From assembly GCF_026151205.1 (NCBI RefSeq), contig NC_087080.1, positions 13,339,337 through 13,403,336 on the forward strand: a DNA stretch of 64,000 nucleotides, in the 5' to 3' direction. The notes beneath the pieces are model-generated. The model saw only the letters and a program-made list of their open reading frames with translations. It had not been told where the DNA came from and searched no databases. This stretch comes from Bolinopsis microptera (lineage: Eukaryota > Ctenophora > Tentaculata > Lobata > Bolinopsidae). Positions 10,609 through 44,200 of this stretch are shown here, piece by piece. Each line of letters opens with the position of its first letter. Position 1 is the first letter of the stretch. A program made the position numbers and the translations under genes.

Positions 10609-12231
10609 ATGGGATACCGACTCTTAGACCCACAACTAGTTTTAGAACGTCTGCTTAGACCTGTCAGGAGTACAAGCACAACGAAAGTGCAAGTTATTAA
10701 TAACAATCTTCCGGAGAACGATAGTCGCCGGGATCATTTTCAACATACAACTGTCAATCCACGATCATCCGAACATGGGGGACTCAACAATTTCAATAAC
10801 ATGGCCACCACTGCAGGATTCGAATTAAAAGCCCCGGTTAATAGCCCCGTTATGCAGTTCGAAGCCCCACCGGTCAGGATAGCGTTTACTGACCGCAAAC
10901 CGCCTCGACCTAGAGCCGCCCATAGAAAAAATCAGATAAAACATCCAAACCTTTCAGATGAAGTAGAAAACACTATATGTTATGGTCCTCAGACGGCTAT
11001 ATCACTGTGGAAGACCGAGTATATTTTGAGCGTCCCGAAATTTCAAAATACCGAGGAATCCATTGAGGTGCATAATTATGAGCTTAAAATGCCAAAGAAA
11101 AAAAGCAAACCAACCAAGTTACGAAAGCTGGTCTCAGAGTTTAGGACGATCAGATCCGACACAGATCTCATCAGCAAACACCAGTTTTCGCTTCAACAAG
11201 TACATGTTCAGGATCGTTCGTTTAGACGCAAAGTTGGAAGACCTAAGGGAGCCCACCATAAGAACCACCCGATGTTCATCCCTGGCCTAGCAGATCATGA
11301 CAGTGACGACGAATTTGAGGCTTTGTCAGAAGCAACAGCGGCATCGTCCAAACTTGTCAACCAGTTGATAAAACCTGCTGAACCTTCAAGGATGAGTGAA
11401 CGAGCGATATTTACATTTGTTCCAGGTTCAAACGTATAATAAGTATTTATCTTCCTCGTGAAATTAATTATGGGCATCCTACTCCTAGATTAGATTGTGT
11501 ACTGTACACACGGACTTTAAATTACTGTCTGACCTATTTCAGGACCACCAGAAAACTCTAGAACACCGGAACAACCATTGGTGATCCGTGGTACTCGAGT
11601 AAGCTCCAATGAAACACAAAAGGTCGCCGAAAACAAAGTTGATAAACAAATATCTCCTAATTCTGACGAAGGAGGTATCATTAAAGAACTGGAGGATCTG
11701 ATGACTTTAAACCCAGACTCGAGAATGTCAGATGTAACAATTTCAGCAACGTCAGAAAGGCCTATCAACTGTCTAGGGTGAATTATTTGAAATCCCATGA
11801 AAGATCCATACATAATTTGAGAGCCAATTATCGTAACACTAAAAGTAATTTTGACTGATCAATAAGCTGAATTTTGATCATATTATTATAATTTTTTATT
11901 TTGTTTGCCGTATTGAATTATCATTCATTAATAACTTAACTTAACAATTGAAATAACATTATACTAATAAATGAAACATTGCAGACATGCTTTGCTCCCG
12001 GGAGGTATTAGTGATACTGATTCTGAACCAGAATTGGGAGAAGAACCTAACACCAAAATTCGAAAAGCAACATCAAAACCATCCCAGAGTGTCAAAAGAA
12101 ACAAAACTCGCGACAGAGCATGCAATGTAGGACGAACTATTATCTTTCCATTCAAAAGACCTTTCAATGGTGTGAGACGAGCGGTCACAAGGGTGATCAC
12201 ATCAATCCGGGCTCTACTGTTAAATTCCTGA
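10609..12231 (+). CDS. RPRAAH family copy A: basic three-exon protein, function unknown
   Basis: Not a family I recognise. Exons 10609-11425, 11543-11777 and 11985-12231 join in phase (G|GA, GG|A) to 432 codons and a TGA stop. The first ATG of the frame is 10609; ATG 10801 is an alternative because similarity to copy E is strongest after it. Exon 1 has the basic [12 protein letters not shown] segment, then [20 protein letters not shown] (an AT-hook-like GRPK core), an acidic DHDSDDEFE stretch and ends ERAIFTFVPG. Exon 2 carries EGGIIKELEDLMTLNPDSRM; exon 3 opens LLPGGISDTDSEPE and turns Lys/Arg-rich. The exon-1 donor GTTCAA is weak. No signal peptide or membrane segment. Alternating basic and acidic blocks suggest a nuclear or nucleic-acid-binding role (inference). 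It looks intact. Confidence 0.6.
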
Positions 12232-12345
12232 AAAATTAATTCGAAAAGAAGGAATTTTGAAACCAGGAAATCAAACTCGACAGCAGTCTCAGAATTTGGA
12301 TCGAACACGAAATCTCCTATTAAGCGATTGAGTACTTGAAATTTT

Positions 12346-12378
12346 AATGGGTAATTCCTTTATAAAGAATTACCCATT
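12346..12378. repeat. Short hairpin after copy A
   Basis: Near-perfect inverted repeat, arms AATGGGTAATTC and GAATTACCCATT with a small T/A loop, about 115 bp past the copy A stop. It could form a stem-loop in the transcript's 3' region, or be a small foldback remnant. Confidence 0.7.
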
Positions 12379-12865
12379 ATTACCAGATTAATTTTGCTAT
12401 AAAAGCAAATCAGAAAAGTCCTTGATGCATTTTGTATTATCAACCAGAAAAGCAAAAAATGTTGCAAGTTAGGCGAAAATGCATGGTCTCGTTTTTAATT
12501 TTCTTGTAATAGTTTCACGATTGAATGACTACTTCTACTATGTCGGAGCTAAGTCCGATCTACGCCAGATAACCCACTCCATATATCCCTGTCCCGCATC
12601 AGGGTTCGCAGTTCCTCTTTAGAGTTTGTCCCAACTTCCTTCAGTAACTTAGACAAGTAGCTTTGTCTTGGTCGGCCTTGCTGTGCTCTACAGTGCGTAG
12701 GTTCCCATAAGACTAAATCACTGGCAAGTAGCTCAGGATGTCCGACGATTGAATGAAATGTAGCAATCTGGATATAATACTTTTTTTAAAATCTCGACAC
12801 TTATTTTACTTCGGCCATTCCAACAGCCACATTGTTACACAATTGTGTAACCAGCCAATTACAGG

Positions 12866-13340
12866 AATTATAGCCAACTATGTCAGATGCGACGGTCTCA
12901 ACAATTACGTCAGAGGGACCTGACAACTGCGGACTGCCTGAGGTAAATATTTTGTAAAGTTGGAGGCCAATAGCAAATAGATTAGAGGACTATGTTTTAT
13001 TGCCTACCACTTTCAATATTTATAATTATATAATAATTAGCTTAATTTACAACAATCTATTAGTTTGTTTGAGTTTAATCTTGTCCTGCTGCAGTATTGT
13101 CATTGAACTGTTGTCTATAAGTAATGATACGTTAGTAAGCATTTCTAACAACAACTAATAAGTAAACCATTGCAGACAGAATTTGCTACTGGGTGCAGTC
13201 AGCGATTCCAAAGGAGAAGTAGTCAAAAAGAAACCATAAAAACTCAATGATTATTTTCGATAAAAAGCCACCACCGCCTAGGGCTGCTCACCCGAAGAGA
13301 CCACGCGAACCAGAAAAAACTTTCAGAAGAGTGACACAAA
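12866..13340 (+). pseudogene. RPRAAH family copy B fragment (exon 2, exon 3, exon 1 piece)
   Basis: The end of an exon 2 (MSDATVSTITSEGPDN, donor GTAAAT at 12943) is followed by exon 3 after a TTGCAG acceptor (13176; RQNLLLGAVSDSKGE, stop near 13239). A short exon-1-like piece then follows (DKKPPPPRAAHPKRPRE, about 13258-13310). Exon order is out of register for one gene and no start remains, so this is a duplication remnant between copies A and C. Confidence 0.65.
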
Positions 13341-13562: not shown

Positions 13563-14078
13563 TTGGCGCTGTTTATGTTTCTTCTTTTACTATCAATTCG
13601 TAAACACAGAAAAATGGTTTTGGAGCGTCTTCGTACACCATTAAAGACAACTGTAAATACAGGTAGGCCTCAAAACCCAATGAGCCAACAGAAACGCAAC
13701 AGAAACGCTTGGGGCTGTCTTCACGGACAGAAGCCTCCACGACCCAGGGCTGCTCACCCGAGAAGACCACGCACAAGAGTACACCATCATGCTGTGGCTG
13801 GTGACAGGTAAAGAGTAGAAACCCTTATGGCCCAAGGGTGCGCATCACAAGAACCACCCGATGTTCATCCCTGGTCGTGATTAGGAGGTTGATAAAGAAT
13901 ACATTAGAAGGCTTCCTCAGAAGAAACTATAACTTCCTCAAAGAGAATGAGATGACAGAAAATAAGGAACGAGGGACTTTATTCCTAGCTCGATTCTCAT
14001 TTCGGCTGATTAAAGGGCTGATTGAATCAACGGAAAGAGCTATATTTACATTTGTTCCAGGTATTTCTTTTTTAGATA
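13563..14078 (+). pseudogene. RPRAAH family copy C, exon 1 remnant
   Basis: Begins with a block GCGCTGTTTATGTTTCTTCT shared with copies F (about 39158) and H (about 41604). [16 protein letters not shown] is in one frame to the stop at 13809; [16 protein letters not shown] lies in another (13838-13884, with an in-frame stop), and the exon end ERAIFTFVPG with its donor GTATTT (about 14062) in a third. At least two frame breaks, and no exon 2/3 located downstream. Confidence 0.65.
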
Positions 14079-14089
14079 CTGTTTGAACT

Positions 14090-14959: not shown

Positions 14960-15808
14960 AATTAACTTTATTGTCTCTGATAAAATAACGCTTGCTATTG
15001 TCCTGCTTTATAAGTTCTTTCATCTGTTTGACAAGTCCACTGTGTAGTATTCTCTGCTCCCTTGTCCTATCCAGTGCAAGATAAACTGACTTAAATCATC
15101 ATTTGTTTTAAGTTTGTGTGCATTCCTTAGTATAATGTCCACATCGCTAGAGCTTTGTAACTGACCTTTGACTGGTCGCGTTTTCTCAGGAACTTTCTTC
15201 CCAATCCTGCATATCTCATCCGTGTCAGGAAAATGACAGCCGGCCTCAGCAAAAACTGACTTGAAAAAGTCCGGGAGAGGGTCCATCTCTAATACGTCCT
15301 CCCACTCCCCTTCTTCCGTCTCTTTCAAACCGTAGATAATCAAGTTTCTCGATCTTTCTTCTTCTTTATTCACTGATCGCACGGCTTCTTTCACAGTTTT
15401 TGTTGTCAGCTGATTGTTTAGGACGCTGTTCTTCTTGACGACATCTGCCCAACTTTTCATTTCATTCTTTACAGTTTTCTTCACCGATTCGATCTGATTC
15501 TGCTGTCTGTTTATCAGCTGCTTTTGCATGTCTATCTGTTCTGTTTTCATCTGATCTATCTTGCTGGCTGCAGACCTGCATAGCTTCATATTGCTGTCCA
15601 TTAAATTTACTATGCTGCTGAGGAAATTTACAAGCGGACCCTTAAGCAGTTTTTGTAGAACACCCTGGTTGATATCAGAGAAGGACGAGACATTCACGGC
15701 TTTCATGAGCTTTCCAATCTCCGATTGCATATCCTTTTCCACTGTGTGTAGTAAGTCCACAGAGAAATTCATCAGGTTAGCGTGGTGTGTAACACTTGCA
15801 GATAACAA
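14960..15808 (-). mobile_element. Non-LTR retrotransposon ORF1-like remnant
   Basis: Reads (minus) a coiled-coil segment (QIDMQKQLINRQQNQIESV), then RSRNLIIYGLKETEEG and ICRIGKKVPEKTRPVK, the order typical of the RRM-like domain in LINE ORF1 proteins. The frame is broken near 15080: LDRTREQRILHSGLV and MKELIKQD continue in another frame. The first ATG in the frame is MNFSVDLL, near 15777. It lies 3' of the neighbouring minus-strand RT rather than 5', so the two are probably separate insertions. Confidence 0.65.
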
Positions 15809-16030
15809 CTGCTGATAACAAGCTAAAAACGATACAAATGCTAAGTGGTTTACTGCGAATCTGAAATTGAAATGAATATCTAGACAATATTTAGAGTAAT
15901 GAAATTATTATTAATTCATTCATCATTGACGTTTTATTATATTTGAGGCAATGCTCAATTAAATTGAAAAGTCGTCACAACTTTTATATATAACCTGCAA
16001 AACCGCTAAAAGCTAAAATTGAAAATTGAC

Positions 16031-17700
16031 TCACTTGACTCCCGTGTCGTTGAGACCCGTGTCAGCTCGTAGGCTATCAACATAGGTCATGGCTGGTCTC
16101 CCCCTACTCCGCACCCCATGAGTTGGTTCCCAGAGTAGCAAGCGGTTTGCGACTAGTTCTGGGTGCCGGTGGATATGGCCTGCTAGTCGCATCCTGCGCT
16201 TTTGGATCTTCATGGTTGCTCTCGGTAGGTTGCCATAGACTTCTTTGTTGGTTTTTCGCTGCTTCCAATCCACATTAAGTGCCATCCTTAGCATTCTAGT
16301 GTAGCAGCCATCAATGCGTTTCTTCAGTTGCTCTGTCAACGTCAACGTTTCAGAACCATAAAGAAGTATTGACTCCACAGTAGCAACAAATAGACGGATC
16401 TTCAGTCCTCTTCTAAGGTCAGACTTCCACATCTTCTTTAGCTTGTGGCAGGCTGCCCAAGCCTTAGCTTTTCTGATCCGCAGGTCCCTCTCTGTTGTTG
16501 ATATCCAAGCTCCAAGGTAAACAAAGTCTGTCACCTTTTCCAGCTGGTTTCCAGAACAGCTATTAAGACTACTCGCCTCTTTTGTCATGTTCAGAGTCAT
16601 GAACTTAGTTTTAGTGCCGTTCATGGCTAGCCCAACACTCAGTGCTGCTTTCTCAAGCCTGTCTAGGAATAGTTTTGCCCCTTCAATGGTATCAGTGATA
16701 AGGGCAACATCATCTGCAAACTCGACGTCTGCGATCTTCTCGGCTGTCGGCACCAATCCTTCTACTCCGTGCAGGCCTGAGAGTGAACCCAGAGTCCGAG
16801 TCATCATCGTCTATAGACACTGTCATGATATATAGTCGATCACGATAATGAACAAGTACGGGGCAAGAGTGTCTCCTTGCAGTACTCCAGCCAGGATATC
16901 AAAAATTTCTGTTATACCATCGGCTGTAACTACTTTAGCCTTTGTGCTCGTATAGATACCCTCAATGAGCCGCACTATGGCTTCTGGTATGCCATATGCT
17001 TTCAATATCTTCATGAGCAAACCTCTATGCACACTATCGAACGCCTTTTTGAAATCTATGAAAACCATGGTGGCCTTAAGATTTTTAGCTCTAGCACCCT
17101 CCATAATTCTTCGTAGAGCAAGGATCTGCGATGTTGTAGAGCGCCCAGGTCTAAAGCCATTCTGGTTGTCCCTTAAAACTTCCTCAAGACTTGGCTTCAT
17201 CCTGTTCAGCAACATTTTGTTCAGAGTTTTACTGACTATCGATGTCAGAGATATTCCTCTGTAGTTGTCGGTCTTACTCTTAGTGAGGTCCCCTTTCTTT
17301 GGCACAGGAACAATATTACTGAGCTTCCATTGATCGGGCATGAGACCATCACATAATGCATCGTTGCAGAACTTCAGGATGACGTCATCGATGTCCACCC
17401 TCTTCATCACTTCAGGTGAGATACCATCATCACCATAAGCTTTGCCTTCTACTATCTGCTTGTAGCGCGATGCGTTACTGTGCCGCGCCGCGCACTCAAC
17501 AAGGCTTCTCACAGCGAGATTGGCTAGATCGGCGAGATGCGCTACTGTGCCGCGCCGAGCTGCCATGAATTGACATCGTCAATTAACTATCTGCTTTTTG
17601 GCAAGACGTAGTTCCTCAATGGTGAACGGGCCATCCTCAATATTCAGTGGAGGGTGTATATTCCTGATCGGAATACTATTGTCAGGGACTGTGGGTGGCT
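16031..17700 (-). mobile_element. LINE reverse transcriptase (RTE-like), inactivated
   Basis: Non-LTR reverse transcriptase on the minus strand: GKAYGDDGISPEVMKR, NYRGISLTSIVSKTLNK, NGFRPGRSTTSQI, FIDFKKAFDSVHR, LAGVLQGDTLAPYLF and the catalytic FADDVAL, then a C-terminal LAGHIHRHPE segment. The style is RTE-like. In-frame TGA and TAG between IDYIS and MMTRTLG (16807-16823) inactivate it. A 126-bp GC-rich insertion (17461-17586) also splits the region before GKAYGDD; upstream coding (EDGPFTIEELRLAKKQIV) continues to about 17700. No endonuclease recognised, so it is 5'-truncated. Confidence 0.85.
17461..17586. mobile_element. 126-bp GC-rich insertion with 10-bp target duplication
   Basis: ACTATCTGCT occurs at 17451-17460 and 17587-17596, flanking GC-rich DNA unlike its surroundings. 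Inside, a block ending TACTGTGCCGCGCCG occurs twice, and the right end carries a perfect hairpin AATTGAC-ATC-GTCAATT. Removing the insert and one duplicate restores the expected LINE reading (AKKQIVEGKAYGDD), which supports a real insertion. Too short to code; class unknown. Confidence 0.8.
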
Positions 17701-18426: not shown

Positions 18427-18857
18427 AACAAGAAATGCAAAATGTGAAATGGGGCCGCTTTTCTTTTGAATTTGTGGATGGCCGCTCATGCATCAATTTC
18501 CCGACCGTGATTGATGGCGTATTTCATCATATTCCATATTATATATATATAACAACCTGGGGGCTGGGTACCCGAGTCTTTACTGTTTATATACATGCAG
18601 ATTTTGGATATAATATCAATATGGCGAAGCGCGACAATAGTGAATAGGCGGAACGAAGTGGCAGGCCGAGCGCCGCCCAGTTATTATTTTACATCGTTAA
18701 TTTCTATTATATTTATACGTGCATGGTGAAATTAACAATTTACTTGTTATATTATGAGCAGGTCAGCGTTGCCAGTTGTGCGACAACAATTTGAATTATA
18801 TCTAATTTAGATTACCTCGTAAAATAACTTTGCGCAGGCTAGTCAGGAACGTGGGCA
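18427..18857. repeat. Upstream segment of copy D, duplicated at 37769-38410
   Basis: Matches 37769-38410 in order: CCGCTTTTCTTTT, GGATGGCCGCTCA, GGTGAAATTAACAATTTACT, CGACAACAATT and AAATAACTTTGCGCAGG. Both copies lie upstream of an RPRAAH member (D here, F there), so the duplicated unit included promoter-side DNA. Confidence 0.75.
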
Positions 18858-18882
18858 CGTACGACGACGACATCTGACGGTC

Positions 18883-18896
18883 GTTGCCATGAGAAC
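18883..18896 (+). promoter_or_regulatory. X-box (RFX site) upstream of RPRAAH copy D
   Basis: GTTGCCATGAGAAC fits the RFX X-box consensus RYYNYY-N1-3-RRNRAC with a 2-bp spacer. It lies 121 bp before the ATG of copy D and is followed by ACACATCGATGTT and the shared AGCACGTGCAACTTCAGT block. RFX factors commonly drive ciliary genes; that link is inference here. Confidence 0.6.
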
Positions 18897-19016
18897 ACAT
18901 CGATGTTCAAATTTTGCAGTCAGCACGTGCAACTTCAGTTATTATTATCAAATTCGTAACATTAGCAAATTAGAACCAGAAGATTAGAAGAATCAGAAAG
19001 AAGAAGCAGGTTAAAA

Positions 19017-19984
19017 ATGGAGAAAACAATCATGGTTTTCAAGACAACAAGCTCAGCCAACAATGGGAAGCCAATGAACAGCCCTATTTTGGCCACAGGA
19101 TCAAGACCACCGAGACCGAGGGCGGCCCACCATAGGAGGCAAAGAACACCTACAGAGCTGCCCGAAAGTGCAGGTACTAAGTTACATTCTCATTTTTATT
19201 ATCATCAGTGTGAAATTGTTGAATTCTGAATTTCTTCGTACTTTCAAATTGTAGTAGCTTTTAGTAACCCTAGATTAGATTTTGTACTCATTAAACTATT
19301 ACAACCTATATAATAGTAGAACTAAAAGAAGCTTATATGGCTAGACTGGCTTGCGAATAGACAACGATCCATCAACTTGAGGAGTATCTTGGCCTCAGGC
19401 CAGACTCCTCAATGTCTGACGTCACAACTTCGACGATGTCAGCAACATCAAGGTAAATATTTTGTATTTGTAATGCAAAAGTCTATAGATTAGAGGGTCA
19501 GGTTTTATTGCCTAACACTTTAAATATTTATTATAATATATTGGTTTAATCTACAACAATCTATTAGTTTATTTGAATTTAATCTTGCTGCAGTATTGAA
19601 CGGTTCATTTTAATAATACGTTAGTAAGCATTTGAACGGTTTATTTTAATGATACGTTAGTACTTAGTAAGCATTTGAACGGTTTATTTTAATGATACAT
19701 TATATAGTAAGCATTTGCATTGTATCAATAAAATTATTATTAATTATTCCAGGCACAGCGTACTCCCAGGTGCCGTGAACGATTCGGAAGATGAGGTAAG
19801 AAGGGAAAAAGTCTTCGATACCAGGAGTGTCGAGTCCCATAGGAAAATAGAGAAGGTAAAGAGGCGCAAAAGGATTCCCATTCAAGGACGAGCGGCTCTC
19901 TCGTCTTTGAAGAGAACTTTAACTGCTGCAAAGACGAATTTCATGGCCTGTTTCCATTGGTTAGTTTTAAATTTAATTCATTAA
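19017..19984 (+). pseudogene. RPRAAH family copy D, single nonsense codon
   Basis: Exons 19017-19173, 19317-19452 and 19753-19984 join in the family's phases. Exon 1 is short: MEKTIMVFKTTSS, then [17 protein letters not shown], lacking the GRPK/HPMFIPG part seen in A and E. Exon 2 reads LACE then TAG where copies F and H have NEW or SEW, a Trp-to-stop change; downstream it keeps [16 protein letters not shown]. Exon 3 reads HSVLPGAVNDSEDE, then Lys/Arg-rich VKRRKRIPIQGRAALSS, ending FHWLVLNLIH. All splice sites look usable, so a truncated product of about 70 residues is possible, but decay is the simpler reading. Confidence 0.65.
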
Positions 19985-21189: not shown

Positions 21190-24100
21190 TCGCCTATAGA
21201 ATGTGCCTATTGACGACCTAGGAAGACCACCGGTCCCTATTCTCGCTATCACTGAATCATGGTCGAAGCCAAATATCAGTGACGCTCAAATAGCTATAGA
21301 TGGGTACAACAGTCTTAGAGCAGACCGTAAAAGTCGAAAAGGTGGTGGTTGTGTGCTTTACGTTGAAAATTCGCTGCTAGTATCATATACTGTAAATTTT
21401 AGTGACAAACATTGCAGTATGCTGCATTGTTTCATAGACTCTATGAACGCCCTTGTTTCCGTGATATACCGCCGACCAGATGCTCCTCTCGGATCCTTCA
21501 CAGCAGTCCTGGACCAGGTGCAGGAGAAGCTAAATAACTTGACATCGGACGATAGATCACCTGACATCTACATTATGGAGGATTTCAACCTCCCAAATAT
21601 AGATTGGGACTCTTGCCAAGCTTTACCTGGTCAACCGCTTTGTGACCAGCAAGCTTGTTCCGAACTAATTGATTTCATGGAGAGAAATTTCTTGACACAA
21701 ATGATTTGTAAGCCCACGAGAAATAACAATACCATCGATCTCGTCCTCACAAATAAACCACAAGACACAGTTGAGACCAACATCTCCGAATGCCAATTAT
21801 CTGACCATAGGCTAATCGAGCTCGTACTCGGACATAACCCACTCTGCCCAAAAGAACATACTCTGATATCTTTCGACAGAAACTCTTTTCGAGCGACTGA
21901 TTTTCATAGAGCAGATTTTGAAGCTATGAACGATCGTTAACTGGATCTCTTTGATCAGAGAACTCTGTTATGAAGATGAAGATGGAAGTACATTTCTGGA
22001 GCTTATACGCCCAACTGTCCTCCAGAATCCAGATAACCCTCCTAAATTCGCCTTCTAAAGACCCTACCGGAACTGGCCCCTCCCGCCCCCGTAGAAGTCG
22101 CCAAGTCCGTGAAAAATACGCAATGAAGAGGAAAAGAAGAAAACTGAATGCCCAAATAAGTGCACTTACTCAAAACAACCCAACTTCGAGAAAGATCGAA
22201 AAGCTGAAAACCGAAGAAAATCTTCTGACCGTGACCTTCTAAATAGGCGAACTTGTGATCAAGCAACTTAACGAAAAAGAAGTAAAAGCTGTTAGTACAA
22301 TAAAGGCGAACCCAAGATTCTTTTATTCTTACGCTAAACGATTTGCAAAGATAAAATCATCCGTCGCCCCAATTAGAGACACAAACGGAACTCTGAAAAT
22401 GGACCCAGCGGAAAAAGCAGAAATTCTACAGACTCAATACTTCAATATGTCACAGTAACCCAAATTCTGAAAATGTAGAAGAGTGCCTCACCGGATTAGA
22501 TCCTCATCTAAAGGAAGATATCAACACATTCACCTTCACAGCAGACGACATATCAGATGCCATAAAGGAACCGGACCCGTATGCATCCACCCCTGATGGT
22601 GACATCCCGGCCACGATCCTAACTAAATGTCGAAGGACAATCGCTGAACCAATTTATCTACTCTGGAAACGCTCATTTGATAACGGAGTCATACCATCTG
22701 GCATGAAGACACAGTACATCACACCTGTGTTCAAGAAAAGAGACCGAACATCTGCCGCTAACTACCTCCCTGTCTCGATAACCTCTCACATTATTAAGAT
22801 ATTTGAGAGAGTGGAAGTTGGAACATATGGAGTCAAACAGCTTTCTCTCCCCCCATCAGCATGGATTCCGCAAGAAAAGAAGCTGCTTAACTCAATTAAT
22901 AGACCACGTAGATAATATCCTGAAAACTCTCAATGACGGCAACGAGGTTGATGTGATATACCTTGAATATGCCAAAGCGTTGATCGATAAGGTAGACCAT
23001 CAAATACTACTTGCAAAGGCAAAACGCTATGGAATAAAAGGAAAGACTCTGCAATGGCTGACCGAATTCCTGAAGGATCGCCTGCAAACTGTGGTCGTGG
23101 AAAGAACAAAATCATCATTTCAGCTAGTAATCAGTGGGCTACCCCAAGGAACAGTATTGGGACCCATACTTTTCATTCTATATATTGACGACCAACTTGG
23201 CACATTGGTTACCGCTCTGGGAAAGGTGTTTGCTGACGAAACCAAGCTCATTGGAAAATTCATGGACCTAGCTACCAAAAGCCTACCTCAAGACGACCTC
23301 CTCAATGTAATAACTTGGGCCCTGAAAAACAACATGCAACTAAATGAGGCCAAATTTGAAATATTGAATTACAGCTTGAACAATTCATTACTTTTAAGAG
23401 AATTACCCTTTACCAGTCAATATTCCTGTTACAAATTACCAAATGGAAGAACTATTGACTCAGCCAAAACTGTGAGGGACCTAGGGGTTCTCCTGTCAAA
23501 TGACTGCTCCTGGTTTTCTCACATACAGCTTTCTAAAACAGCAAGGACGATGACGTCATGGGTCCTTACTCACCTTAGCGTATTCAGAGATAGGTCACGC
23601 TTCCTCATGCTCACCTTTTACAAAACTATGGTGAGGAGGCAAACTCGAATACTGCTGCCCGGTGTGGAACCCTGACAAAATCAGCGATATAGAAGCTATT
23701 GAAACTTGAAATCATCCAACGACACTACACTCGTCGAATCAGTGGCTGCCAGAACCTTGATTACTGGGAACACCTGCAGAACCTGAATCTTCTCTCATTA
23801 CCGAGACGCAGAGAACGGTACATCATAATCCATATATGGAATATGATGAATGGACTAGCTCTGAACGACATCAACATGCAGTTCAAGGAAAGCTCCCGGC
23901 ACTGTGTAAAGGCCACTGCCTGCATTTAATAAAAAGGCACAATGCTCAATCTCGACCCATTATGAAACTCTTTTGGAGTAAAAGCAGCCAAACTACGGAA
24001 CCTGCCCCCCCAAGGAAGTTAACACAATCCAAGTCTTGGAAACTTTCAAATCCTCCCTTGCTAAATTCTCGTAAGGCTTCCCGGATACCCCGCCCACAAA

Positions 24101-24245
24101 AGCTATACCGCCATCACAAATAACTCTCTTCTGGAATGGACTCTACAAAAAGATCTAATCCAGGAGTGATCGGACGTACTTGATAATGTACGATCCCTGC
24201 CGAACCTACCTAAAGTAACCTAAAGTAACCTGAAGTAACCTATTG
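21190..24245 (+). mobile_element. CR1-like LINE, nearly full pol, inactivated
   Basis: Endonuclease 21203-21940: PVPILAITESWSKP, GGGCVLYV, VIYRRPDAPLGSF, MEDFNLPNIDW (the usual GDFN Gly is Glu) and LSDHRLIELV. A frame-broken linker (21970-22460, RFFYSYAKRFAK) leads to RT 22470-23675: YITPVFKKRDR, HGFRKKRSCLTQL, YLEYAKA, SGLPQGTVLGPILF, VFADETKL (second catalytic Asp is Glu) and KTVRDLGVLLSND. The C-terminus continues to about 24120. The 3' end is a 10-bp repeat CTAAAGTAAC (24208-24240), the short 3' tail typical of CR1-type elements. Multiple stops and active-site changes make it dead. Confidence 0.85.
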
Positions 24246-29265: not shown

Positions 29266-32200
29266 CTGAAAACCAAGTTTCATAACGCATGAATATTGGG
29301 GGGGGGGGGGGGGGCCAACCATATTAAAGTATATTAAAATGTAGGATTTTTCCCGATTTTGACCCGGGGATATACTTTAATATACTTTAATATACTTTAA
29401 TATACTTTAATATATCCCTATCTCCTTGGAGGCCTACTTCAAAAATTGTTGCCCAAAATAAGCTTGAAATGCAATTCTTAATCTATTCCAAAAAGTTTTT
29501 CCCAATTTTCCCAATTTTGTTCATGGAGGTCTTTTTACTTAGTATCCACTATATTCAACAAACACTGAGTTATATCCTTCACATAGAGTTAGTCTCATTG
29601 AAAAATATTGAAGCTTTATCGAATTTGGTCAAAAGCGAATTTGGGCAAAAGCGTATGCCCAAATATGGGCATATTTTTTAAAGCTCATAGCTCAGCCAAT
29701 TTTTGACCAATCTGGATGGAAATTCATGTACTAGTCCTAAAACAGGCTTATCTTGCGAATCTGAGTGAAAAATATAGTTCATCATGTAAATCTTAACGAA
29801 GAATATAAATCTTCTAATTGTAGGTATATTAAAGTATATTAAAATGTAGGATTTTTTCCGATTTTGACCCGGGGATATACTTTAATATACTTTAATATGG
29901 TTGCCCCCCCCCCCCCCCCCCCCCCAATATTTTAACAGAATGAAAATAATGCATAAGAGCATACAGAATTGCCTCAGCCATGTAACAGTGACATCGTGAT
30001 TTTTTACCTACGCTTTTATAAGATTCATGAATGCAGTATATAATATCTTACTATATATAAAGCGAGACGATATATATATATATTTATCTGTGCCATTTTA
30101 CTGACACCACGGCATCAACTTTAACGCGAATTTCTGCAAAAACCGTAAAAGATATACAACTGAAACTTTTTTGACTGGGTCAAATGCTTTAATGGCCTCC
30201 AAATCAGCAAAAAAAAAAAAAAATAGGCCAAGAAATAGGAGTTTTAGAGCCCAAAATTTGGTACCCCAAGTGGTGTCAAAAACGCGAATTAAATAGGTAA
30301 TAATTGTTTTAGTCTCTTGAGTCTTGACACCATTTTAGGGTTAGACGGGTTCCTGCTAGTATCTTATAACTGACCGTTAGTCCTGAAGAGTTGTAAGGGA
30401 TTTGACAGCCCCTTCTGTATAACTCTGTTTCTGCACTGATTAACCCAGCATCTACACCGCTGGTTACACTCGAATATCACAATATCGTTGTACTGTTCGC
30501 TTATCTCTGTGTTCAACCGACCGTCCTGAAAAGTTATCGTAGTTCGTTAGGATTTGTAATTCGTCACGAAAAGGCAGGGTTCGACAGACTCTAGGACTAT
30601 TCTGGACAGCCCAGGAGACTATTAAACGTTGTTTCTAGCTTTCTAAGTCGTTACCTTGTTGTAAACACATTTGCCGCCAGTAGTAAGGAAGAAGCAGGAG
30701 CAGGGAGCCCCAGGTCTACAATGGTTCTCACATACGCACGACTGAAAAGGTGGTTGTAAAGAAAGTTAGAGTTACATCCGAAGGGGCTGCAATCATAAAA
30801 CTATTTCTTTGTAATTACAATATCAATGCAGAAAAGTGAGATCAACTTAGTAAATTACCTTGACTACATTCATGTTCCTGTTGATACAAAGATAGGAACT
30901 CTCGAAACTCTCCTTTACGTACACGAAATCTAGTGGAGCAGCCACGTCGTCCATTTCGTTTATGCAGGGGATCGGTATCTTTTCCTTACCACAGGTGATA
31001 TCACTGGAATAGAAGAAATAATTCAGGGAAAACGTATTGAAATACTACCCAGAATCTAGAAAAGTATACACTAGATTTGATCAAACCCGAATTGGAAACA
31101 TGAGTACTTCTTTATCAGCATGGAGGGCTCTGCAAACTAGAGTCGAATACACCACAAGTAAATAGATCAAACTATATGATGTAACTAAATTGTTTGATAT
31201 TTTAATATATTAAAGATGCTATATTTAATGATAACGACGTCTGACGATATATTTAAATATATTTCCTGACCTGTGCAATACGGTATTTTTCTGAGGTTTG
31301 GGCGAAGTAAAGTTCCGAGAATCTCTTTCTTTTTCCAGTTTCTGAATTAACTGTACTATTTCCGGTGAAGCATCCTGAAAAATACATTTAACAGACTTAA
31401 CTTGACGCTATTGTATCAAGAGTTATTTATGCTTTCACAGCAAACAAAAACAGTGAAACTTAACCACTTTTCACGATTGGCGGGACGAGTTTTGACTGTT
31501 ATTATATGTTTGCGCTATGATCTCATATGAGATGTCGTGCGCGCGGGTTCCTAGCTTTCATAGGTAAACAGTCTTCGCGTCTTCCTGATATGTGATTTTA
31601 TGGTAACATTCTTTTTGTTTTTGCCTCTTTCAGGGCCGTAACTATTATTTCACCAGATTTTGCACGCTCTTCGAGACCGTTGCCATGAGAACACATCGAT
31701 GTTGATGAATTTTGCATTCAGCACGTGCAACTTCAGTAGACAATATCAAAATCTCTATTTCGTTTAAATCATACCACAAGAAAGTAAAGGACAGAAACAA
31801 AGGAAAGGAAGAAGGAAAAATGGCGTACCGGATGCTCAATAACTTGAACATCCTGAACGAAAACATGAGATGCAGGGCACCAACTAACAGCCCTGTGCCA
31901 GTTACATCCAGACTGGTCAGGATTGCATTCACAGCACAAAAGCCGCCCAGACCACGCGCAGCCGACCCACGAAGACGACAGAAGCCTGAAATGGGCCTAT
32001 CAGAAGGGCTTCGGACGGTCAGACCTAAAACCGCCCACCCAAAGAAACGGCGAAGTCTGGTGAATGGTAGCCCAATAAACCCGTCTCCGAAATGGAAAGG
32101 TGGTAGGCCTAAGGCAGCCCACCACATGAACCATCCTATGTTCATTCCGGGAAGGGAGGAAAGTAGTGATGAGGAGAAATTCTCAGAAGTTCCCTTCGAG

Positions 32201-35200
32201 GAACTGACAAAAAACCAGGAACGAGGATCGTTTGTGCCAGGTACTTAAAAAGTGCTGTATTATCTTCGTTTTTTCATGTTGCAATTATTGTATTCTAAAA
32301 TTCAATAACTGTAGTTTTTGAGATTCTAAACGGGATTTTGTACACACTGAACACTGAACTATTTCATAATTTCAGAGTCCCCCTTCTCTGATGAAGGAGA
32401 AGCTATCAAGGAACTGGAAATGGTAATGAGGTTGAGTCCTGGTTCAGGGATGTCTGAATCAACGACTTCCAAACGACCTCTTAACCGCTTACGGTAAACA
32501 AATTGTAATCTTAAAAGCCTATATAGATATTATAGGGCCATAACTTAAACGTCACCGTTTACATTTACTGTTGAATAATCTGTGATATTTAACGAATTAT
32601 AAATGCAATGTTTTATTGCTGCAGTGAACGAATTCATTTCAATTAATATGTTAGCGAAAATTAGTACTGTGCCATTAAGTAACTCTAGCTGATGTGAAAA
32701 CTATTGCAGGCAATTTCAACTTCCAGGTGCCGTTTTTGATACAGATTCGGAGGAGGAAATTGTGGAGCAAAAGAAGGCTCAAATTCTGAATACAGAATCC
32801 TTTTCCAACACAAGAAAGGGCAACAGATGCTGCAGAATACGCAGAAGAGGAAGAGCTATCATATCTTCTTTGAGAAGGACGTTACTCAGTGTCACACAGA
32901 AGGTCCTGTGTCTCAATTAAACGAGACTAATTTGTGCTCTGCCTATGGCCATTCACATGTCGGTCAGATTCTTCAGTACCCCCAGATTTCAGTGTTTCTT
33001 CGTTTCGGTCACTGGACTTCTACAAAGCAGATTATGTCAAAATCGATCATCTCCTTGATTCTGTTAATTGGAGTGAACTATGGGAAATTTGTGATCCTGA
33101 AGAATTTCCTGAACTGTTGAACTTTGTCCTTCTTCAGATATGTGAGATGGGGTGCCCAAGAAAAAGGCATCTAGCAAAAGGCGGGGTTCACCGGTTAGTA
33201 AATTGTCTCGCAAGAAACGCAAATCAGAACTTCGGTTGCAATTGGCTGAACAAAATCCAGTCGCTACAACAGCTTACTTGGAGTCACTTAGAAACAAGAT
33301 TTCGAGTTTTTACGCTGACATGCGAGACGCTATAAACCACGACCTTAACTACCGTGAACAACAGGCGGTAGATAAAGTGCACAGCAATCCAAAATATTTC
33401 TACAGCTATGCTAAAAAGTTCTCTAAGCAGAAACGCAGTATTCCAATGCTTTTCAATGAAGCCAAAAGAACAAAAGAAGTGATTGCCAACATCCTCCAGC
33501 GTATTCAGTGACCATTCAGCCACTAACGTCAATGATGCATTATTTCAGTCACCATCCCTACAGAAGCCATTCATTGATGACATGTTGACATTCTCGGTTG
33601 CTGATATAATTGAGGCTATTGATGTAATTAAGCCGGGTGCCGCTGCTGGGCCTGACGATCTTCCAGTCCTGCTTCTGAAGAAATGCAAGGAAGTACTCTC
33701 CAAACTTATACACATGATTTGGCAGCATTCTATGTTTACAGGCACAGTACCGAAGTTCCACAAGACATCAAACATTGCTTCACTTCACAAGAAGGGCAGC
33801 CAAAAGTTACTTTAGAACGCTTTCTGACCTCCTTAACGAAGCTACTGTGAACATCCCACACACACACAGCGTGGGCTGATGATATAGTAATACTTTCTCT
33901 AGAGTCAATCCAAAAGTCTCCCGTGCTTACCAAGCTTATAAATTAAGTGGACCTCTTGAAAGTTTAAATGGGTAAGTAGTAAGCCAAAGCTGTAACCACC
34001 ATAGCGACTTACCCACGATTTCTCTAAAGCTATCAGAGGATTTCGAAAGTCAATTCTCCTGTTTCCCACATCAGAGATGGAGAAGTTCGACTGCACACTG
34101 ACCCCAAGGAAAAGGCCCAGCTCCTCCAGGCCTAATTTGTAAAAGTGTTTAGTGACCCCGATAAAGCCTCCATTGACAGCGACATCTGTGCGACAGTGAC
34201 ATCTGTCCGACTCAGGGTATCAGAAAAAACGACATCTGTCCGATTGTGATCTGATTTCAATACGACACATTTCCATACAAACTGCTTTAAAGCCATCAAG
34301 GAACTTCTAAATTATGGGTTTCGAGCAGGAGAGCATTGAATGGAATCCGTGATGCCAACCTTCTGCGATATTGGATGAGGGAGGAATCATCATCTGTGCG
34401 GCTTCGTGTGGGGAGCGATGTTAGGATTGGTGGTTGATGTCCCGATCCAAGTACGTTTTCGTAGTATGAAGCAAACTCAGCCATGTCTTCAACCAGAAGC
34501 CTTTCTTTTCAAGTTCTGTTTGCTGACATGGACGTTGTTTCACCACGGTAGATATGCGGGCTCTGGAACCCTTCCGGAAATCCGAACATTTCCAGTAGGT
34601 GGTGTCGTCCCCTCGTTTGTCGAAGACGTATCGGAAGCCATTCAGGACAGAGTTTTCCGAGCCTTGTTTGTGTCCAGGGATAAACTGAAGATTGGTTGCC
34701 ATTGTGCCATAATGGCATTGTGGATTGCGATAACTGATCTCAATACCGCTGTCCGGCTGTCCTATATGTACTGAGTACTCATGTAGGCTGTGTCCTGTGA
34801 TATGATAAACAGGTTGTTAGTGTACGGCTAGCACGATCATGTCCTCAACTAGTCAATCACGTATCGATGGATCAGATCTCAATGGATCACATCAGCATTA
34901 GAACAATGGGAGCAACGTCACAAGATTACCCGTGAGCTTGTGAAATACGAATGTGAACCGAAATTACAATATGAACCGAAATTCGGACAGATGTCGCCAA
35001 AAACGACTCCTTTCCGACATCGACATCTGTCCGATATCCCTAATTCGGCTGTCGGACAGATGTCGCCAATCCCATTGAGGAACGCCTACTAAACCCGGTA
35101 CCATCAAAGGAGCTTATTCCGATGCAGTTATCAGCAAATGATATCTCAGAAAGCATCAAAGAACTGGACCCGTACTCATCAACTCCTGATGAAGATATTT

Positions 35201-38200
35201 CTACTAGGATCCTGACCAAGTGTAGAGAGACATTGTCTGAGCCTATATTTCTACTTTGGCAAGATTCTCTCCTAGCATGAAACCGCAGGTTATTACTCCT
35301 GTCTGCAAGAAGGGTGATCGCAGAGAGGCTGTCAACTATAGCCCAGTTTCTATAACTTCCCATTATGAAGATCGTTGAAAGGAACAGAGTCATCCTTTTA
35401 ACTGGCAATTAGTGGGATGACACAAAGTACAGTGTTCGGACCGATTCTGTTCAACCTCTACTTCGATGACCAACTGGAGACATTTCTCTGTGGGGAGGTC
35501 ACACAATGTGATGGCCCTGTTAAAGCTTACCGTTCCTCAACATAGGTGACATAGGTAGGTGAATATACCACCATTTTTAGTGAAGAAGAAACAAATTAAA
35601 GTTTAATCTAAAAAATCTACCGAATCTCAACATAGGTGACATAGGTATGTGGATATACCAGAATTTTTAGTGAAGAAGAAACAAGTTAAAGTTTAATCTA
35701 AAAAAGATAAACAAGAGTTATGCCAGAACCTCATTTACAAATGACTGTTTTTCAGAGAACTCTCCAAACAAGGTTGGTAGACCACCTAGAGCGGAATAAA
35801 ATCTTGCCCGACAAACAACACGGTTTGAGAATTGTAGCTGCCAGAGTATGTTGATTCGGTTCTCAAAGAACTCAACAGTGGAAAAGAAATTGATGTCATA
35901 TATCTTGATTATTGCAAGGCATTTGAAAAAAATCCTGCTAGAAAAGACACAGAAGTATGGAATAGGTGGCAAAGTCTTCACTTGGATGAAGAACTGACGG
36001 GGCGAGAAAAAAGCAGTCACCGTAGAAGGACACAAGTCCAGACTCGAGGATGTAGAAAGTGGAGTACCATAAGGAACCGTCAATGGTCCTGTATTATACT
36101 TCATGATCTATGTGATCGACCGAGCAATACAAATCCGAAATTCTTTACAACTGGCCTTCGTAAACAACACGAAGCTCATGAAGGCAATAATATCCATGAT
36201 CTGCTGTACACTACTTCAGATCGACTTTGGTCATGTGCTCGAGTGGTCCAAAGTTAACAGTATGGTCCTGCAAGAGAATAAGCTTGAGGTGATCAATTAC
36301 TGCCTCAACCACGGATTGCCAGCCGACCTTCGACAATTATACGTCACACCAAGTGGCGTTGAAATAAAGCCAAAGGATGCTGTTCGTGAACCCCTCACGT
36401 TTGTCAGGTCACTGCTGGCGCAAGGAAAATGGCCATGTAAAGGCCGATCACCACTACAAATGATCACACTTTTTAAGTCAATGGTCAGGAGCAAACTGGA
36501 ATACTGCTGTCCAGTTTGGGTGACATACAAGCGATTGAGAACATCCAGCAGCAGTTCACCCGAAAGATATTACAAGGACTACTGCTCTACTGGGATCGGC
36601 TAAAAAAGCTACGCTTGATGTCCTCTCAAAGGAGACGTGAGAAATATTCATTGGGGTGCGAGCCTATGTGCGAACACTGAACCACAAGGCTCAAAAATCT
36701 GTGGCAACCAAATATGAAAGCTCATTTGGATTCAGGGCACCGCGCCTCTGGAATCCAACCACCAGGGAACCCTTCACCTCAACTGTAACTCCAACATGAC
36801 TCTCAGTACATCCTGCCAGTTCAACTCCTCCTTCCATTCAGCTCCGTCAGCAACATGAGGTATATCCATTACTAATATCACTAATATGAGTAGTATTTTG
36901 TAAGATCTACTGTTTCCTGTGACGGTCTTTTACATTGAACCGGTTTATTTCTGCGGTTCAAATTCCTCCAGTAAAGGTGGATAATGTAAGGCATCTGTCA
37001 CAATCCTAACATTTAACTATCTTTCCAGTTTCTCAACCCCAGCCAGAGACGGAAACAGTAACTACCACTTGGTAACTACCATCTGATAAAAAGTCTCAGA
37101 CCTGAACAACCTGTCTGAGTACCTGAAGGAATACGAGGAGAAGTGGCAGAGTGGCTGCCACAGTGTCACGTGATAGTTCATGGAAACATGCTACAGTGGT
37201 CAAGTGAATTCCTGATGAACCTCCTCAACACAGTGGTCGTTGAAGGAACAAAGTCATCCTTCCAACTAGAACTGGTGATAAGTGGGATGACTAGGAAAGA
37301 ATTGGGCGACGAAAGCGTTCCTTGAGATCTGGTCCATCGATACGTTATTGACTATGAGAGGACAGGATAGTACTAGTCGTACATTAATAAGCTTAGACAA
37401 GCTGCCCATCACGGATCACCACACAGCCTACAGTATATCATATATAGGAGAACAGAATGAAGATCAGATATCACAATCGTCAGTTTATTTCTGGAATTGC
37501 GATTAAGTTTGATTATTAAAAAGTTTGGTGAACAAAACATGGCAATGCATTGTTTCTCTTGTTTTACGATTGAGTCAGTGAGACCGAAAATCATAGAAAC
37601 TTTATGTTAAAAGTGAGGTTATAAACATGAAATCCTGCACAGAAGTACTTCATTTATCAAAAATTTTGCAAACCAAACACTGCTACATCATATATCTCTA
37701 CAATAGAATAGATATTATGTCGAACTATTTAAAAATAAATAAAACTACACTCTACAGACTGCTGTTCCTGAACAAGAAATGCGGCCGCTTTTCTTTTGTG
37801 GATGGCCGCTCAATTTCCTGATCCGTGATGACTTATTTTATTATATTCGATATAACCTAGACCTGGGTCTTAGCTGTTTATAAGCAGTTCTTTTATTCAA
37901 ATTTCTGATTGTTTCTGAATAGACTCAGTGAAGACAGATTCTAATGGAAATAAATAGCTGAATAACGTATCGACATTTCTACGTCATACTCATATTCTGA
38001 AATAGTAGTAATTCAATTATAACGATCAATATGTACATTAAAAATTTGACGACGAAATTTATTTCAAACAAAATATATAACTGTAAAATAGTTATCCACT
38101 GTAAAATAGTTTTTAACGAAATCAGAGCAAATATGAACATAAAACTGACAAAATTTATCAAATAGGGCTCATCTGAAAATTAACGAATAGCGTGACGAGG

Positions 38201-41200
38201 TTGTATATTATGCAACCTGACACGGATCTGTGCAAAAAAGTAATACTAACAATAATAACAATATGCTATTAATTAGTGCCTAGTGAGATACGTACATATC
38301 ATGGTGAAATTAACAATTTACTTGGTCAGGTTAGCGCAGCGCGACAACAATTATTTAATTCAGAATATCTCGCAAAATAACTTTGCGCAGGATAGTTAAG
38401 AACATGGGCGACATTATATTGGCTACATAGCGGGCACGTATGTACGCACGCTCGCACGCACGGTCGCAAAGCTACCAGTACCATATACAAAAAAACCTCG
38501 TTCGCTAACCCTTGTCCTTGACTCTTTTGTGCCTTCGGCACTTTGAGTCATGGATCGGGAAAAAATATATAGAACTTATTAGAGACATCTTATGTCAAAC
38601 ATTCATACAAAATGAAATTGCTAACTTGAAATTTTGGCTGGACATTTTTCCAAACATTTAACGAAAATATGTTTTGATAAAGGAGCATGCTTGCGATTAG
38701 TCTACAGTACTTTATTATCTCACTTTTGTTGTATGTATTGTTGCCCTATCTAATCTTTAACCAATTTTGGATGCCGCAGCTCAGATATTGTTACAGATAA
38801 AACAGTTTTGATAAAGGAGCATGATCGTAATTGTTGTTCTCTAGTACTTTACTGCACACTTTGACAATTACAGTTTACCCATAGTTGCTTAATGTATATC
38901 AGACTTTACTGCTTAAGATGAGAGTTGCAGTTGGTGATTGGACGAAACCCGTGTCTAGATAAGTAGAAAGAGACTGTACAGTAATTCTGACGATTCATTA
39001 ATATATATAAGAGGGGATTCTAAACGTATCTGCCATCAGTATTGGTGCTCTTTTTATCTTCTTTTACTGTCAAGAAGAAAACGGCTCTCAATGGATGAAA
39101 AACCTTATATTAGTACACAGAAGAAAACTAAGGCTACTCCACAATAACATATTATTGGCGCTGTTTACGTTTCTTCTTTTACTATCAAACATTGATCGTC
39201 CTTGACCGTACAAAGGTACGGTGGCAGGCCAAAGGGTGCCCACTGCCCACCACATGAACCACCCAATGTTCATCCCTCACCAGCTTAAAACCTCTGAGAC
39301 CTAGGGCGGCCCACCCCAGGAGGCAAAGAACACCTCCAGAGCTGCCTAAAAGTGCAGGTACTAAGTTACATTCTCATTTTTATTATCATCAGTGTGAAAT
39401 TGTTGAATTCTGAATTTCTTCGTACTTTCAAATTGTAGTAATTTTTGGTAATCCTAGATCGGATTTTGTACTCATTGAACTATTACAATCTATAGTGGAA
39501 TTCAAAAAAAGCGTACCTGGCAAACGAATGGACAAAGATCCATGAACTTGAGGAGTATCTAGGGCTCAGGCCAGACTCGACAATGTCTGACGTTACTACA
39601 TCTACGATGTCAGCAACATCACGGTAGTAAATATTTTGTAAATATTTTGTAATGCGAAGGTCTATAGATTAGAGGGCCACGTTCTATTGCTTAACACTTT
39701 AAATTTTGCTATTGCTTAACACTTTAAATTTTATAATATATTGGTTTAATAGATACAACAATCTATTAGTTTAAAAAAATTTGATCTTGCTGCAGTATTG
39801 AACGGTTCATTTTAATGATACGTTAGTACGCATTTGCATTGCACCAATAAAATTATTATTAATCAAATCATTGCAGGCACACCCTTCTACCAGGTGCCGT
39901 GAGCGATTCGGAGGATGAGGAACGAAGGGAAGAAGTCATCAATATCAGGGATGTTGAATCCGATAGAAAAATAGAGAAGGTAAAGAGGCGAAAAAGGATT
40001 ACAATTCGAGGACGAGCGGCTCTTTCGTCTTTGAAGAGAATACTAATATTTATAAATATTAGTTTAATCTAGTCTATCAGTTTGTTTGAGTTTAATCTTG
40101 TCCTGCTGCAGTATTGAACTGTTGCTTTTAATGATACGTTACTCGTTAGTAAGCATTACTAATGCAGGCAGAATTTGCTACCAGGTGCAGTCAGCGACTC
40201 CGAGAATGAAGCAGGAAAGGAAGCAACCGTCAAAACTCAATGATTCGGAATGATTATTTAGTATTTGCACTGTTCATTTTTCTTCTTTTACTAAACGTTT
40301 ATGGTCCGTGGCGTATCAGATACTTGACCACAACCTAGTACTAGTGTTCGAGTGTCACTGTCTCACGAAGGCGGTCAAGACAACAGGCAGCCCATCTGCA
40401 TTCTGCATCAATCAAAACATGGAAACGGCCACAGAAACAACATGAATATCCTGATTAGTTGACAGCCCCGTACAACAGCTCCCAGCTCCATCCAGACCAG
40501 TCGGGGTTGCTTTCTCAGACCAAAAACCACCCGGATGCCTAAGGCAGCACACCAGACGGCAGAAGCATGCTCAAATTGAGCAGATGTCTGAAATGGGCCT
40601 ATCGGAACGACTTCGGACGGCCAGACCGAAAACCGCCCACCCAAAGAAACGGCGAAGTCTGGTGAATGGAAACCCGATAAACCAGTCTTCAAAACGGAAA
40701 GGTGGTAGGCCTAAGGAAGCCCACCATTCCATGTTCATTCCGGAAAGGGAGGAAAGTAGCGATCAGGAAAGATTTTTAGAAGCTCCCTTCGAGGAGCTGA
40801 TAAAACACCAGGAACGAGGATTCTTAACGTTTGTGCCAGGTATTTTAAAAGTGCTGTATTATCTTCGTTATTTCATGGTGAAATTATTCCATTATAAAAT
40901 TCAATAACTATAGTTTTTGAGATTCTAAACGGGATTTTTTACACATTGAACTATTTCATAATTTCAGGGCCATCGGAATCCCCTTTCTCTGATGAAGGAG
41001 AAGCTATCAAGGAACTGGAAATGGTAATGAGGTTGAGTCTTGATTCAGGGATGTCTGAATCAACGACTTCAAAACGACCTCTTAACCGCCTACGGTAAAC
41101 AAATTGTACCCTTAAATTCCTATATAGATAGAGGGCCATAACTTAAACGTCACCGTTTACATTTACTGTTGAATAATCTGTGATTTTTAACGAATTATAA

Positions 41201-44200
41201 TGGTTTATTGCTGCAGTGAACGGATTCATTTTGAATGATATGTTAATGAAAATTAGTATTGTGCCATTAAGTAACTCTAGCTGATGTGAAAACTATTGCA
41301 GGCAATTTCAACTTCCTGCTGCAGTTTTTGATACAGATTCGGAGGAGGAAATCGCAGAAGAAAGTAAAGTTCAAATTCTGAATACAGAACCCCATTCCAA
41401 CACAAGAAAGGGCAACACACGCTGCAGAATACACAGAAGAGGAAGAGCTATTATATCGTCTTTGATAAGAACGTTAAGCCTCGGACAAGGAGGGTCCTGT
41501 GCCTCAATTAACTGAGGACTAATTGCAATGTGTGATGTATCCATTCACACATATGTAAGAAGAATGCCTCCATGATCCCCACACATCTCCATAACTGTTG
41601 ACGCTATTTACATTTCTTCTTTTATCATCGTCGTTTACTGTTGAAGACAACTTGTACTGCAAATACAGTTAGGCCTCACAGCCCAGCCAAAGAGCCAGAA
41701 AGACAAGTCGGGGCTGTCTTCACGGACAAGAAGCCTCCGCGACCCAGGGCTGCTCACCCAAGGAGAGCACGCACAAGAGGAGACCATCTTAGTCAACGAA
41801 CAGAAACCCTTAAGGCCCAAGGGGGCAAGGGTGCCCATTATAAGAACCACCCGATGCAATGGTAATCCCCGGTCAGGATGCGGCCAGTGGGGATAAGTCA
41901 GGTACTTAGCTACATTCTCATTTCGGTTATCATCATTGTGAAATTGTTGAATTCTGAAATTCATCGTACTCTCAAATTTGTAGTAGCTTTTGGTGATCCT
42001 AGATCGGATTTTGTACTCATTAAACTATTACAACCTACAGTGGCACTAAAAGAAGCATTATATATGGCTAGACTGGCTTCCGAATGGACAACGATCTAAC
42101 TTGAGGAGTATCTTGAGTCAGACTCCTCAATGTCTGACATAATGTCACCAACATCAAGGTAAATATTTTGTTCCGAGGTCCCTCAAGACCGGTCAGGGTG
42201 GGGTTCAGAGACCAGAAACAACTGCGCCCACCACGCGATTCAACGACACTGAACCGTCATAATTGATATTACACCTACGTTCTACATACTATCACAAGAC
42301 GGAATGAACAATTGAAATAGTTTTGACTTTTGAGTGACTGATTTATTCATGATACATGCAATTATTATTGATGTTATCAATTAAAATAATTATTAGTTTT
42401 AGTTTAATTTGTAAAATCAGCTCTTTGCGCGGCGTACTGACCTGCAAGCAAGTTTTTCCCTGTTTGTTTGGAAGTCTGAGACTAGCACCTGCGTTAACAA
42501 TCCCTCTAACACTGCCACTGTGTGATAACCGCGCGGAGATGTGCAATGATGTGTCTCCTGTAAACATTACCTTGTCAGCACAATCTTATTATAATAAATG
42601 TTCTGCTGGATACTCTTAGTATATATTATTATATAGTGATTGTATGGGGGAGGGGGTGAAGGGGGCCTATTACTCTATTATATAGTACACATTATCCCAG
42701 CTTTGGTCATAGCCTGTTCATGGTCCGAATCCCCCGGTCAGAACAGCTACACTGAAAGGTCAAGAATCAATAGTTCCCACAGTCAGACAACGAATGAGTT
42801 TAAAAATTCCAACAAAATCTTTATAACATCATTGGTAAAACATTTTCGGACATCTTCAGTACCTAATAAAGATAAGGGTTAATACTCCAATTATATCAGA
42901 AAGGTTTCAAGATAACATACCTCGCTCGTTGATGGCGTCTATGTCGGACCTAACACTGAGAAGTAGCTGGACAATGTCAGCATGTCCGGAGAATGCTGCC
43001 CAGTGTAGTGCTATATTCTGTTCCTGTGAGGGCATCACGTGTCATGGATTGTTTTTATAATATTTCTAGTTCAGAACTCTTTGCTCCATTCGTGTTATCG
43101 ACGGAAATGATATAATACACTCAATAAACTAAAATACTGAAATGACGAGAATGGAGATATATATCGAAACGGGAAATGATATAAACACACGACCGAGGCC
43201 AAGGAGGTATGTATTATAAGTAAAACTGAACAAAGTAAACTAACCCTATCTCTAAGATGGGGATCTGCCCCTTTCTCCAGTAAACTCTTCACCACATCTA
43301 CGAACTTGTACTCGCACGCCCACATCAACGCTGTCCAGCCGTCCATGTCTTGTGTGTTAACTTTTATACGGTTATCTGTCAACAACATCTGAGGAAATGT
43401 TATGTTATGGTGGATGGATCCTTTGTATCAAGTTACAAAAAATAGATAAAGTTAATTAAAGATCTGAGCAAGGGATTGTTTTATTTATTGATTTTCGGGT
43501 CGTAAAGATGACCCCTCTTAAAATATACTGGAAAGAATTTACAAAAAAAGGGGACTATGTGAGAAATAATTTAAGATCTTTTAATCTTTTAAATTTTGAC
43601 ACCAAATAATGAGCAACTCACGTCAATACAAAGAAGATTACCAAGCTCACAAGCATAGTGTAGCGCCGTTCTGGCGTTGGTGTCACGAGCGTTTACATTG
43701 ACCCCCTGAAAACAATAAACAGTTTAGTATTATATAGAGCAGCAGACAGATTTTACATTTTGGTAGATTGATTGTGGAAATGTTGTAAGGAGGTTTAGAA
43801 ATACTGTCTGGACTAAATCGGAATGACGGGGTTGTCCCCAAAGCTCCAAAGGTACCCGAGCATTTAGTACCCGTGATTTGTTCACCTTGAGTTTCCAAAA
43901 GGATCATGGATAAAATATTAGCACTAATCTGGAGATCATTGAAGCGGGCAAGTGGAAACATTATTATTTGGCTTTTTGGAATGCATTTATGAAAAAGTGC
44001 TATATTTTAAGTGACATATTTTCCCTGCCGACCGTTAATCGTGAAACTTTTATATGGCTTACTGAACCAAAAAAAGATGATTCATACTTTTGTTTGCACG
44101 TCAGATTTTACGTGATACATATCTAGAAAATTACCGTAGCCAGAAATGAAATTCAATAACTAGCCACTGGCCGGGTGCATACCAACAGTTCTACTCGTAG

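Follow-up and report, generated by a model that had tools for sequence, protein, structure and literature searches.

The stretch of the Bolinopsis microptera genome analysed here (the window; 64,000 nt, C9:13339337-13403336) carries repeated copies, all on the forward strand, of a three-exon gene that an earlier note had described as an RPRAAH family with copies A to H; the exons, intron phases and protein blocks that these copies share confirm that observation. The common plan has introns in phase 1 and then phase 2 wherever measurable (A, E, G and gene I, which lies outside the window) and combines RP(R/K)xAH(P) repeats with a GRPK-AHH-HPMFIPG block; ELE marks exon 2 and LPG..DSE marks exon 3. 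Two copies had been called intact, and both indeed have reading frames that stay open across all three exons, their GT..AG introns being in phases 1 and 2. In gene A (10609-12231, 432 aa), exon 1 (10609-11425) includes an N-terminal helix motif, two RPxxAH motifs and the HPMFIPG block and ends in FVPG, exon 2 (11543-11777) contains IKELE and PDSxMSDVT, and exon 3 (11985-12231) contains LLPGG..DTDSE and a basic C-terminus closed by TGA. Gene E (31820-32920, 249 aa) comprises exons at 31820-32240 (intact, with three RPxxA[HD] motifs), 32376-32493 and 32710-32920 (stop TAA). The FVPG exon end attributed to the family holds for A, whereas spliced E reads FVPE. Exon 1 is overlapped by long antisense frames, among them a 199-codon open frame opposite E exon 1 (31645-32244, minus strand).

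Copy D has exons at 19017-19173 (with in-frame deletions relative to I), 19317-19452 and 19753-19984, and the single nonsense codon reported for it is the TAG at 19358-19360 in exon 2. The other copies had all been taken as broken. This is right for B, C, F and H, which are fragments or broken in frame, but not for G, noted at 40408, which is open from 40455 through three exons (40455-40839, 40968-41094 and 41302-41514); it has no ATG before its first conserved block, and its first in-frame ATG lies at 40584. B (12866-13240) retains the end of exon 2, intron 2 and the start of exon 3, while C (13614-14062) is an exon 1 with a broken frame whose family ATG is at 13614. F (39200-40040) consists of a mosaic exon 1, intron 1, exon 2, intron 2 and a truncated exon 3, and H (41640-42171) combines a C-like exon 1 with a D-like intron 1 and part of exon 2; its exon 3 was not found. 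The starts previously given for C, F and H (13563, 39160 and 41604) fall in an upstream block common to the three, where no family frame was seen. Three further fragments had escaped notice: exon-1 pieces at 13265-13306 (KKPPPPRAAHPKR) and 42180-42262 (carrying RVGF), and an intron 2 with the start of exon 3 at 40045-40245.

Protein and DNA searches of the whole assembly (264.65 Mb in 232 contigs) extended the family beyond the window, to places that the earlier note did not cover. At E<=10 the protein searches returned 18, 13, 20 and 14 matches, which are lower bounds (the best candidates were scored), and all the protein matches listed lie either between 11.4 and 14.0 Mb on C9 or at a single place on C7. 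Gene I (C9:14028603-14029569, minus strand, 188 aa), about 0.65 Mb from the window, is the third intact gene. J, on C7 at about 7.3965-7.3974 Mb, is broken: its exon 2 carries a 7-base insertion, and its 5' part has been replaced. Two remnants lie on C9 at 11.413 and 11.425 Mb, about 1.9 Mb from the window, and are 98.5% identical to one another over 1,853 bp. The family thus tallies three intact genes (A, E, I) and one nearly intact (G), the rest being broken.

The proteins are built of short conserved blocks. An N-terminal L.LERL.RP..TTST motif, which the earlier note did not list, occurs in A, in I, and partly in C and the remnants. It is joined by KPPRPR[AS]A[HD], by GRPK.AHH..HPMFIPG (A and E, partial in G and fragments), by ELE....L.PDS.MS in exon 2, and by LPG....DSE and GRA..SSL.RT in exon 3. 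The RP[RK]xA[HD] motif occurs twice in A, three times in E and once in I, compared with 0.0005 to 0.002 per shuffled protein. All are basic (pI 9.8-10.5), and all three intact proteins contain K[KR]x[KR], a nuclear-import-like motif. In the AlphaFold2 model of A exon 1, mean pLDDT is 48 and helices appear solely at residues 8-15 and 237-245, while E exon 3 is modelled as a single helix (residues 14-68, mean pLDDT 65). These predictions suggest, at low confidence, that exon 1 is largely disordered and that helices form in exons 1 and 3; the input alignments had three and four rows, which makes the disorder call weak. In the plan of the proteins, the acidic LPG..DSE patch precedes the long basic C-terminal predicted helix.

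Two readings assign these blocks to established binding motifs. The earlier note proposed a DNA- or chromatin-binding role from AT-hook-like GRPK and charge blocks, and the family does recall AT-hook (HMGA-like) proteins in charge, in predicted disorder and in the GRPK core of A, E and G, a GRP placed near basic residues. The AT-hook core, however, is RGRP, and here V or G replaces its first R (VGRPK or GGRPK); Pfam yielded no match at E<=10, a level that very short models can escape, and the family has blocks of its own (RPxxAH, HPMFIPG, LPG..DSE). We therefore do not retain the AT-hook argument and regard AT-hook proteins as a very unlikely identity, while binding of DNA or chromatin through the basic segments is possible. 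A second reading takes the proteins as phosphatase-1 regulators in which an RVxF peptide, the PP1 docking consensus, would recruit PP1 to a surface in the nucleus. A and E both have RIAF at the corresponding position, within the block of highest pLDDT in A exon 1, and RVGF occurs in the fragment at 42180; yet RVxF is missing from I, so that only two of the three intact proteins have it at the shared block, and such a motif arises in 700 to 1134 of 2000 shuffles per protein, that is, at chance level. PP1 regulation is in our estimate highly improbable.

No protein family with this plan had been known to the earlier note, and that statement holds for the libraries searched. At E<=10, neither exon 1 from A, E and G nor the spliced A, E and I matched any Pfam model (very short models can escape), and NCBIfam contained no relative of the two intact proteins used as queries (I and E); a dsdC match (E=0.042) was taken as chance. 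PDB profile searches gave no significant match (E>=0.21). The best for exon 3 was small vasohibin-binding protein, in which a short stretch aligned at E=0.21; this likeness is not significant and was likewise taken as chance. Searches of IMG/VR and GTDB prokaryote contigs with exon 1 gave no confirmed relative, Rfam gave 0 matches at the gathering threshold for the window and two further loci, peptide strings of the family that were searched in open-access full text turned up in no paper, and a further literature search, of sources available in part, returned nothing on the family. Sequence comparison thus supports a multi-copy three-exon protein family without a match in the libraries searched, and this much of the previous interpretation stands. 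The family is ordinary in kind, an orphan duplicated family: like other taxon-restricted families it lacks relatives in these libraries, is basic and by prediction disordered, and forms clustered duplicates with many dead copies. As far as Pfam, NCBIfam, PDB, IMG/VR and GTDB show, the family is probably confined to this ctenophore's lineage.

Codon positions and dN/dS indicate that coding constraint has acted on the frames. Counted on the reading frame of I, differences at positions 1/2/3 are 25/9/48 among 162 codons for I-J (p=4.5e-8) and 28/16/49 among 157 codons for I-D (p=1.3e-5). Estimates of dN/dS are 0.16 for I-J (bootstrap 0.10-0.25), 0.25 for I-D (0.15-0.39), 0.43 for J-D (0.27-0.74) and 0.38 for E-G (0.25-0.57), all four ranges lying below 1; a cruder alignment gave 0.17, 0.25 and 0.54 for I-J, I-D and E-G, respectively. 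Neutral dN/dS in all copies, the outcome that had been named in advance as counting against the family, was thus not what we found. The E-G pair is less clear: across all codons its position test fails to reach significance (p=0.14). Its exon 1 begins with a mosaic part, in which 52 of 140 sites are different, and beyond this mosaic 5' end positions 1, 2 and 3 differ at 15/192, 23/191 and 27/192 sites (8, 12 and 14%), compared with 25/318 (8%) in introns, so that constraint there is weak. Also weighing against the coding reading, dN relative to the intron rate is about equal in I-J and I-D and higher in E-G. J and D, which enter these tests, are broken now, and part of the constraint therefore lies in the past; the family is real and was coding at least until recently.

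Might it be dying, a formerly coding family that now consists of neutral relics in a retroelement-rich region, with A, E and I open by recency or luck? The majority of window copies are broken, E-G is nearly position-neutral outside its mosaic part, and reverse-transcriptase and endonuclease frames lie between the copies. Against this, third positions are in strong excess in I-J and I-D, and A, E and I are far diverged from one another (all three pairs saturated, dS >1) but all open. We consider such a wholesale death unlikely.

The copies also keep their introns. Intron 1 is present in all eight copies examined (A, D, E, F, G, H, I, J) and intron 2 in A, B, D, E, F, G, I, J and one remnant; the copies are therefore not retrocopies. 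Boundaries were located with hand-chosen strings, so that GT..AG agreement marks homologous places and is not a blind test. In the copies compared (I, J, D, F, E and G; e.g. introns 19174-19316 and 32241-32375), introns evolve more slowly than third positions, by a factor of about 2-3: divergence is 0.29 at third positions vs 0.10 in introns for I-J (Fisher p=1.7e-7), 0.32 vs 0.11 for I-D, 0.21 vs 0.11 for I-F (exons 2-3), and 0.19 vs 0.08 for E-G when its mosaic 5' end is included or 0.14 vs 0.08 (p=0.03) when it is left out, these pairs not being independent. For I-J exon 3 by itself the gap does not reach significance (p=0.09). Neither base composition nor CpG suffices as the only cause, as the gap persists at non-CpG and at A/T-only sites in all four pairs, E-G being aligned there with its mosaic 5' end. 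As a control, the duplicated receptor-like pair in the window differs at 24-38% of third positions and has unalignable flanks (244 of 465 sites differ), an imperfect comparison in that flanks are not introns; a second pair (45983-46339), with 8 differences in 357 coding sites and poorly aligned flanks, is too similar to inform. Mosaic exchange between copies, of the kind seen in H, may explain part of the slow-intron pattern.

Within intron 1, all eight copies contain an 18-base element (CTAGATCGGATTTTGTAC), 24-40 bases upstream of the acceptor and with 0 to 4 mismatches. Shuffled introns reached the same match level in 0 of 5000 cases for A, 0 of 5000 for E and 11 of 5000 for G; the consensus was drawn from F and H, so the tests are the distant A, E and G, of which E and G are closely related to each other. 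A longer string taken at this site, allowing up to 3 mismatches, matched five family places and nowhere else. One could propose that the arginine-rich proteins regulate their own RNA through conserved elements in their introns and 5' region: introns would then be slower than third positions because the proteins act on intron elements, and CTAGAT..GATTTTGTAC would for the same reason survive in intron 1 of copies whose proteins are very different. We hold such self-regulation to be exceedingly doubtful. RNAalifold found essentially no structured RNA in the introns (-0.35 and 0.0; the intron-2 alignment includes a 24-base artefact row for one remnant, which was not counted). The idea that the introns are mobile introners was also rejected, because an intron 1-exon 2-intron 2 query (at least 12 matches) and an intron-1 pattern (5 matches) hit family places only.

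Upstream of the genes, and likewise new here, a block of about 75 bp (GTTGCCATGAGAACACATCGATGTT..GCAGTCAGCACGTGCAACTTCAGT) is 78-87% identical between E (31678-31753) and D, I and J, the highest value being that of D (18882-18955); part of it, compared by eye, lies upstream of A (10532-10560). E and I are less alike than this in their coding exons (40-54%), and they share 69% identity over the full 150 bp that precede the ATG. Just upstream of the block, D, I and J hold a piece of a dispersed repeat, which our DNA searches matched also outside the family places; it accounts for 29 of the 39 matches listed and extends over more than 500 bp in 20 copies examined. In the window it lies at 18446-18856 and 37776-38409, the repeat being found also upstream of F. 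These flanks, and the presence of copies on two chromosomes, would suit a cargo or accessory gene spread with a transposon. Yet the genes themselves are not dispersed, the listed protein matches being confined to the C9 interval and the one C7 place; moreover the introns are kept, the proteins contain no Pfam transposon domain, and among the matches listed the repeat piece has none at A, E or G. Spread as mobile cargo is in our judgement quite unlikely.

Given the copies, exon plan, coding constraint, motif repetition and charge described above, the reading that we favour, tentatively and at somewhat less than an even chance, is a real lineage-restricted coding family of basic, largely disordered nuclear adaptors that duplicates and decays. 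Its expansion would have proceeded by DNA-level duplication, with introns kept in the copies, and birth-and-death decay would have left few intact genes among many broken ones. The one to three RP(R/K)xAH(P) peptides may bind a partner several times over, while the basic C-terminal helix may hold a nucleic-acid or chromatin surface. Nuclear location, binding and function are suggested by charge, predicted disorder and motifs, and a point against the nuclear part is that import-like motifs are common in basic proteins. The family offers a compact case in which to study the duplication and death of disordered motif proteins, and the reasons for which introns can outlast silent sites.

The remainder of the window holds other duplicated and repetitive DNA. 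Decayed retrotransposon frames occur between the copies at 15020-17578 (minus), 21200-24123 (plus) and 33146-36603 (plus), the first two with Pfam reverse-transcriptase or endonuclease matches and the third judged by translation alone. The receptor-like pair (1059-2041 and 3541-4535) is 81.6% identical, and the single frame of it that was tested lacks a Pfam match; a receptor-like frame at 6288-7004 (minus) has a 7tm_1 match. A more recent duplicate pair (45838-46729 and 50075-51786), 94-97% identical and again without a Pfam match in the one frame tested, looks, by eye, to begin with a signal-peptide-like segment and to span the membrane once. Finally, a tandem repeat with a 19-bp period occupies 5062-5312, its self-matches being 97-98% identical.
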